From contig CALISO010000018.1 in NCBI GenBank assembly GCA_938041445.1, forward strand, positions 20,385 through 84,384: a DNA stretch of 64,000 nucleotides. The letters run 5' to 3'. The DNA is from an uncultured Saprospiraceae bacterium (GTDB lineage: Bacteria; Bacteroidota; Bacteroidia; Chitinophagales; Saprospiraceae). The position numbers and the translations under genes were made by a program. This document shows, piece by piece, positions 62,718 through 63,200 of this stretch; within the stretch, counting starts at the first letter, position 1, and every line of letters starts with the position of its first letter. Below the pieces are notes generated by a model that was given only the letters and a program-made list of their open reading frames with translations, made no database searches and was not told the origin of the DNA.

Positions 62718-62799
62718 GCCTCGGTGGCGGAATTGGTAGACGCGTTGGATTCAAAATCCAATTTCTTCGGAAGTGGGGGTTCGATTCCCCCCCGGGGTA
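62718..62799 (+). tRNA. tRNA-Leu (CAA)
   Basis: GCCTCGG/CCGGGGT acceptor (two G.U), anticodon arm TTGGA-TTCAAAA-TCCAA, variable arm, GGGGGTTCGATTCCCCC. Confidence 0.94.
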
Positions 62800-62838
62800 C
62801 TTTTTTTAAAAGCCTAGCAAGTGTTGCTAGGCTTTTGT
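62730..62838 (+). repeat. Direct repeat copy A (tRNA-Leu D-arm to terminator)
   Basis: Collinear with 63092-63200 at constant 362-nt offset. Confidence 0.95.
62808..62838 (+). terminator. Terminator, copy A
   Basis: AAAAGCCTAGCAA-GTG-TTGCTAGGCTTTT (13 bp perfect). Confidence 0.88.
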
Positions 62839-62866
62839 CCTTGCAGGCCAAAAGTAAATCACGCTT

Positions 62867-63115
62867 ATGTTTTACGTTTACATCCTTTATTCAATGTCTG
62901 TTGATAAATTTTATATCGGTCAAACTAATGATTTAGACAAGCGAATTATTAGGCATAACAGAGGCTATGTAAAATCAACAAAGTCATATAAGCCTTGGAA
63001 ACTTGTACATTTCGAATCTTATAACACTAGAAGTGAAGCTGTAAAACGAGAACTCGAAATTAAACGATGGAAATCATCTAAACGCATAATTGAATTGGTA
63101 GACGCGTCCCGATAA
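62867..63115 (+). CDS. GIY-YIG nuclease domain protein (82 aa)
   Basis: FYVYILYSMSVDKFYIGQTNDLDKRIIRHNRG...RSEAVKRELEIKRWKSSKRI; C-terminus ELVDASR encoded by tRNA-like D-arm. Confidence 0.92.
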   Translation: MFYVYILYSMSVDKFYIGQTNDLDKRIIRHNRGYVKSTKSYKPWKLVHFESYNTRSEAVKRELEIKRWKSSKRIIELVDASR

Positions 63116-63161
63116 TATCGGGATGTCTTCGGAAGTGGGGGTTCGATTCCCCCCCGGGGTA
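63092..63161 (+). pseudogene. Partial tRNA-Leu-like copy lacking acceptor 5' strand, altered anticodon arm
   Basis: gaattggtagacgcg-TCCCGATAATATCGGGA-tgtcttcggaagtgggggttcgattcccccccggggta. Confidence 0.9.
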
Positions 63162-63168
63162 CTTTTTT

Positions 63169-63200
63169 AAAAGCCTAGCAAGTGATTGCTAGGCTTTTGT
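63169..63200 (+). terminator. Terminator, copy B
   Basis: AAAAGCCTAGCAA-GTGA-TTGCTAGGCTTTT. Confidence 0.88.

Follow-up and report, generated by a model that had tools for sequence, protein, structure and literature searches.

A lone GIY-YIG nuclease gene beside bacterial tRNA genes: what seems to be a widespread class of selfish DNA, apparently not described before

The window, that is, the whole stretch of 64,000 nucleotides analysed here, comes from a metagenome-assembled genome (MAG) of the Saprospiraceae. Near its end, all on the forward strand, lie in this order an intact tRNA-Leu(CAA), retained as the functional copy (62718-62800, called by ARAGORN), an intrinsic terminator hairpin (62807-62837; RNA fold z -4.6; direct repeat D1/D4), an open reading frame for a GIY-YIG nuclease of 82 amino acids (62867-63115; Pfam PF01541, E 2e-17), a partial tRNA-Leu, and the terminator once more (63168-63199; RNA fold z -6.4). 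RNA folding gives the same 14-bp stem in both terminators. The partial tRNA-Leu is made of three parts. Its D-arm, GAATTGGTAGACGCGT (63092-63107; direct repeat D3, 16/16), overlaps the end of the nuclease gene and encodes the last residues of the enzyme, ELVDASR. A palindrome, TCCCGATAATATCGGGA (63107-63123), stands in place of the anticodon arm, and the variable arm, T arm and 3' acceptor strand follow (63123-63162; direct repeat D1, 96%).

The original prediction for this DNA described a direct repeat of about 109 nt at an offset of 362 nt, with the nuclease gene between its copies. The gene, the offset and the coordinates were right, but the repeat does not run unbroken through the tRNA. 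It comprises three blocks, 62730-62745 with 63092-63107 (16/16), 62761-62810 with 63123-63172 (96%) and 62824-62838 with 63186-63200 (15/15), and the palindrome substitutes for the anticodon arm in the second copy; by BLASTN, the two copies align over 109 nt at 89%. That the second copy would not be a normal tRNA agrees with our results: ARAGORN calls none there, and the 5' acceptor strand is missing, with AAACGCA where the intact tRNA has GCCTCGG. The core of the palindrome, CCCGATAATATCGGG (63108-63122), has a chance expectation of 0.00 in the window and occurs once in the whole source genome. The stop codon of the nuclease gene falls within the palindrome, which by RNA folding keeps a stem at the position of the former anticodon arm. 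Leu-type relatives (L002, L003, L005 and L006) have a palindrome with the same position and motif. The source genome harbours a single nuclease of this type.

As for the enzyme, it has a GIY-YIG domain with the conserved Tyr, Tyr, Arg and Glu residues, and Y5, Y16, G18, R26, H30 and E62 are invariant in an alignment of 19 relatives. No DNA-binding domain is recognisable besides GIY-YIG. The best structural matches of the AlphaFold model (pLDDT 92.8) are UPF0213 BH0048 and Slx1, with the catalytic domain of I-TevI more distant, and sequence searches agree. UPF0213/YhbQ-like proteins and Slx1 share the fold and catalytic residues, although Slx1 is a housekeeping structure-specific nuclease without a cassette context. 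The enzyme is under selection, with dN/dS values mostly of 0.06-0.27 among closely related elements of the Pro type.

Searching the family with the protein yielded relatives of the nuclease in 116 of 199 genomes, and with a profile they were detected in 196 of the 297 genomes of the phylum. The query for the wide collection was an alignment of the five-sequence Leu set. Loci were picked by protein similarity alone, and tRNAs were sought afterwards, in three sets (a few loci are in two sets). A tRNA gene lies within 400 nt of the nuclease gene in 173 of 219 loci (80/110, 26/29 and 67/80 per set), and the two genes are co-oriented in all 173. Searched in the same manner, a sister clade of GIY-YIG nucleases had a tRNA gene within 400 nt in none of 30 loci. 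The elements use 17 tRNA isotypes, bearing out the expectation of analogous cases at other tRNAs, and they occur in several phyla. Outside the Bacteroidota, they were found in Balneolota, Ignavibacteriota/Chlorobiota, Neomarinimicrobiota (Pro), Marinamargulisbacteria (Tyr), a deltaproteobacterial MAG (Asn) and several Patescibacteria (Gln, Arg, Ser, Met), of which single cases may be binning errors because many of these genomes are MAGs. Some complete genomes contain 8-22 matches to the nuclease profile, a large share of them at tRNAs. An assembly artefact, which the original prediction had named as a possible refutation, is excluded, as the units are also present in single-contig genomes and in numerous assemblies unrelated to one another. 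A prophage or phage gene is rejected as well, with only three weak matches in 2.9 million viral contigs and no tRNA called beside them.

Two nucleases, L279 (443-801) and L290 (403-797), are found directly 3' of tmRNA genes, whose end is formed by a domain resembling a tRNA. Another GIY-YIG gene, in L175 at about 940-1205, has terminal inverted repeats of about 12 bp, ACCCCGTCAAAT and ATTTGACGGGGT, and this element is apparently inserted within a gene resembling that of a four-helix-bundle protein.

Among the non-redundant tRNA-adjacent loci, 149 of 178 have a partial tRNA on the far side of the nuclease gene, a partial tRNA being called when its score exceeded the 99th percentile of reversed sequence. 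Two mirror forms exist. Form A (n=109) consists of an intact tRNA, the nuclease gene and a 3' tRNA fragment, which extends to the 3' end of the tRNA in 94% of cases and is without the 5' end in about 90%. Form B (n=40, mostly Arg and Ser) consists of a 5' tRNA fragment, the nuclease gene and an intact tRNA. In 92% of cases, the fragment opens with position 1-3 of the tRNA; it extends to the 3' end in 10%. The stop codon of the nuclease gene lies within the partial tRNA in 74 of 109 form A loci and within the intact tRNA in 26 of 40 form B loci. In form B loci such as L020, L021 and L104, stop codons cluster 9 and 22 nt into the intact tRNA.

Inserts in the partial copies contain a stem of at least 5 bp in 93 of 169 cases, against 26 expected from shuffles. 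They are found mainly in the anticodon arm and T-loop in form A and in the D-arm in form B, and the palindromes of the elements are of the type TCCCGA..TCGGGA or CCTGCC..GGCAGG. In G102, G054 and G153, the CCTGCC..GGCAGG palindromes are confined to these loci and therefore belong to the element there, whereas G105, G136, G443 and G512 have further copies dispersed in the genome. Invasion of a pseudo-tRNA by a dispersed REP is rejected for the window, given the single occurrence of its palindrome and the confinement to these loci in G102, G054 and G153. Nor is the unit a REPtron, which combines an HUH/Y1 transposase with GTAG palindromes, as its only open reading frame is the GIY-YIG gene.

Arrays of 2-7 units are common. 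After removal of one duplicate locus, the unit adjoining the intact tRNA resembles a tRNA most closely in 23 arrays, and in 3 it is the outermost unit that does. Such a gradient is expected if new units are added at the intact tRNA while those farther out decay. In L274 (G453:C1:119200-123300), five identical units of 450 nt and a fragment lie beside a tRNA-Leu(CAG) in a single-contig genome, apparently the result of recent amplification. L295 (G443:C1:540900-545300) is an array of seven units with a period of 381 nt, each with a GIY-YIG gene and a hairpin-bearing repeat, and no tRNA was detected near it. The arrays, the mirror architecture, the palindrome in place of the anticodon arm and the spread across phyla all go beyond the original prediction.

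That prediction also called for empty sites, which we found in Flavobacterium. The locus made up of ParA, a spacer of 200 nt and tRNA-Pro(TGG) is without a nuclease in L305, L306 and L308 and equally spaced but occupied in L307, L228 (F. undicola) and L231 (F. glycines). The next gene, trxB, is common to L308, which is empty, and to L307 and L231, which are occupied. The distance from the end of the tRNA to the start of trxB is 197 nt in L308 as against 508 nt in L307 and 552 nt in L231, so that the insertion measures about 311-355 nt. Occupied sites have two copies of the terminator native to the empty one, and the intact tRNA-Pro is identical to the letter in empty and occupied loci, the sole difference being an added CCA end in the empty L305. 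Among 30 ParA loci examined, 3 have a nuclease and 14 have the tRNA-Pro without one. One of the three, L326, has a nuclease of a distant lineage at the same tRNA-Pro, which indicates an independent insertion. The arrangement is not fixed in the genus of the source genome either, since other members have a tRNA-Leu(CAA) without the element. Within a species, the repeat copies agree with each other past the terminator; from one species to another, they differ. This suggests concerted evolution or local tandem duplication and makes the insertion junction less distinct. In L307, read from ParA towards the tRNA, the second copy of the repeat continues at about 670-690 into ATGTTTTT, which resembles the start of the nuclease gene and is possibly the scar of a lost or collapsed second tandem unit.

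Kinship among the nucleases tracks the tRNA isotype more than the host family. In the nuclease tree, which rests on 78 columns and has many weak forks, the isotype changes 62 times, compared with at least 131 times in 200 shuffles, and the host family 53 times, compared with at least 66. The nearest relative in another genus is at the same isotype in 118 of 189 cases (9.5% by chance), and that in another host family in 79 of 153. This clustering is in part the outcome expected from vertical inheritance at one locus. Within genomes, no pair of nucleases at different isotypes exceeds 55% identity, and nothing thus indicates that elements have recently jumped freely from one tRNA gene to another. 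The best explanation is that the elements keep to one isotype and move between hosts, but not freely among the tRNA genes of one genome.

How might such a unit spread? We consider it probable, if by no means certain, that these are selfish nucleases specific to tRNA genes, propagated by break repair that copies a tRNA-rebuilding unit. The nuclease, presumably expressed largely from the transcription unit of the tRNA itself, would cut a tRNA gene of the isotype it prefers, within a part that can form a hairpin. The break would be repaired from an element-bearing chromosome, one end pairing with the intact tRNA of the donor and the other with its partial copy, so that the two would serve as homology arms, mirrored between forms A and B. 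Synthesis would then copy the nuclease gene and the tRNA fragment, and the geometry suggests that one complete tRNA would always remain. The palindrome would spoil the partial copy as a tRNA, and probably also as a cut site or recombination partner; alternatively, it might be a hairpin recognised by the enzyme. The original prediction of a minimal mobile unit that restores its tRNA is supported by the empty sites and the 17 isotypes, with cutting of the tRNA gene by the nuclease and the route of insertion as putative steps.

The existence of empty and occupied alleles at one site, as at the Flavobacterium tRNA-Pro, is typical of homing endonucleases. However, homing normally alters the site and thereby confers immunity, and here only the partial copy is altered. 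As empty and occupied sites do not differ in their intact tRNA, the usual protection is missing, and we do not class the enzyme as a classical homing endonuclease. A classical homing model is challenged above all by the unchanged tRNA, which could instead account for the arrays: this tRNA would stay a target, units would be added next to it, and the outer ones would decay. Because the working principle is probably homing-like, we place the elements among the selfish nuclease elements of tRNA genes.

The TnpA enzymes of IS200/IS605 and the RAYTs nick single-stranded hairpins. By analogy, the GIY-YIG enzyme might nick single-stranded tRNA hairpins and its own palindromes as recognised ends, and the unit might move through replication. 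Such hairpin-driven transposition seems unlikely to us, but it would fit the palindromes in D-, anticodon- and T-loops, the proximity of the fold to UPF0213 and the branched-DNA nuclease Slx1, the sister clade located between REP-like palindromes, some of them perfect inverted repeats of 30-31 nt, the L175 element with its 12-bp terminal inverted repeats within a protein gene, and the two members directly after tmRNA. It is at odds with the lack of recent jumps between different tRNAs of one genome and with palindromes that vary by lineage and are, in some genomes, confined to these loci. Moreover, recognition of hairpins alone would not call for tRNA parts that are homologous over such long stretches.

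Selfish spread by break repair also has to be weighed against a system operating at the level of RNA, which we regard as improbable. The partial tRNA would be co-transcribed with the nuclease mRNA, and the tRNA-like RNA would guide, anchor or restrain the enzyme, in a manner similar to toxin-antitoxin systems or omega-RNA. The stop codons inside the partial tRNA, or inside the intact one in the mirror form, the stem kept by the palindrome and the total co-orientation would be in line with this, but co-orientation also follows from a need for the tRNA promoter. Partial copies that keep very different parts, 3' or 5', and distal array copies that decay are not expected of a functional RNA partner. 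Quite improbable is passive duplication, in which a domesticated, immobile nuclease gene would lie downstream of tRNAs and the fragments would stem from ordinary tandem duplication. Arrays of identical units and repeats homogenised within species speak for it, but it does not account for the palindromic inserts, and the seventeen isotypes, two mirror architectures and several phyla argue against it, as do the empty and occupied alleles and the two unrelated nuclease lineages at one tRNA-Pro. Lastly, the elements might be remnants of integrase-driven islands that left a duplicate of the tRNA 3' end and carried the nuclease as cargo. This is very improbable: intact and partial tRNAs at the two ends are the usual island signature (PMC9897764), but the whole unit is about 300-450 nt long without an integrase, the mirror form duplicates the 5' end, and only this nuclease recurs.

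The nearest experimental precedent is SegB of T-even phages, a free-standing GIY-YIG homing endonuclease that reportedly uses recombination to amplify a tRNA segment of T6 (PMC13096335). Like our elements, it combines a lone GIY-YIG nuclease with neighbouring tRNA genes and tandem amplification of the tRNA-containing segment, and in phages it is co-localised with tRNAs (PMC13096335). SegB is, however, phage-borne, and the accessible text describes neither a partial, palindrome-bearing tRNA nor a tRNA-rebuilding geometry (PMC13096335), whereas the element nuclease is chromosomal, 82 residues long and has few viral matches. Integrative and conjugative elements and islands in tRNA genes likewise have an intact tRNA at one end and a partial copy at the other, but they contain many genes, along with one for a tyrosine or serine recombinase. 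In our elements, the nuclease is the sole gene of a unit of about 360 nt that lacks a site-specific recombinase, has palindromes and also occurs in a mirror form with the 5' end. Those bacterial group I introns that lie in tRNA genes and encode GIY-YIG homing endonucleases share the target and the type of enzyme. Nevertheless, such introns interrupt a tRNA that is then spliced, while the tRNA-Leu(CAA) of the window is continuous, and in the elements the functional tRNA adjoins the nuclease gene.

A search of mainly open-access literature found no published description of the tRNA-nuclease cassette, and the element looks like a widespread, apparently undescribed class of selfish DNA. If so, some 360 nt with one enzyme of about 80 residues would have spread beside essential tRNA genes over many phyla, always sparing one working tRNA. 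It would account for many entries in annotations, both partial tRNAs and short genes of the 'GIY-YIG nuclease family', provide a cellular counterpart to SegB-driven tRNA amplification, and be a source of tiny nucleases with a preference for a tRNA isotype.

The sister clade of small GIY-YIG nucleases (L335-L364 and L280-L284; for example L337, L340, L343 and L355) lies between REP-like palindromes. REP/RAYT systems (REPtrons) and CGTC-tagged REPs resemble our elements in that palindromes bracket a small nuclease gene, but RAYTs are HUH Y1 enzymes and the tRNA-type elements use tRNA fragments; the sister clade is closer to the REP group. CGTC-tagged REPs 'apparently lack a dedicated transposase' (PMC3733652). 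The sister-clade palindromes fit this type of repeat, for which no mobilising enzyme is known; we regard this as a lead rather than a result, and the clade makes testable what moves CGTC-type REP repeats. It is tempting to speculate that lone GIY-YIG enzymes recognising DNA hairpins represent a categorically new kind of mobile DNA, with one branch housed in and rebuilding tRNA and tmRNA genes and a sister branch lying between CGTC-type REP palindromes, which it may also disperse; we put this forward as a tentative possibility. In the sister clade, the flanks share at least 12 nt in 27 of 38 loci, 8 of the 38 having been picked for lacking tRNAs (the shuffled median is 8 nt). L337 and L340 have perfect inverted repeats of 30-31 nt, TGTCATTCCCGCGAAGGCGGGAATCCATCC.
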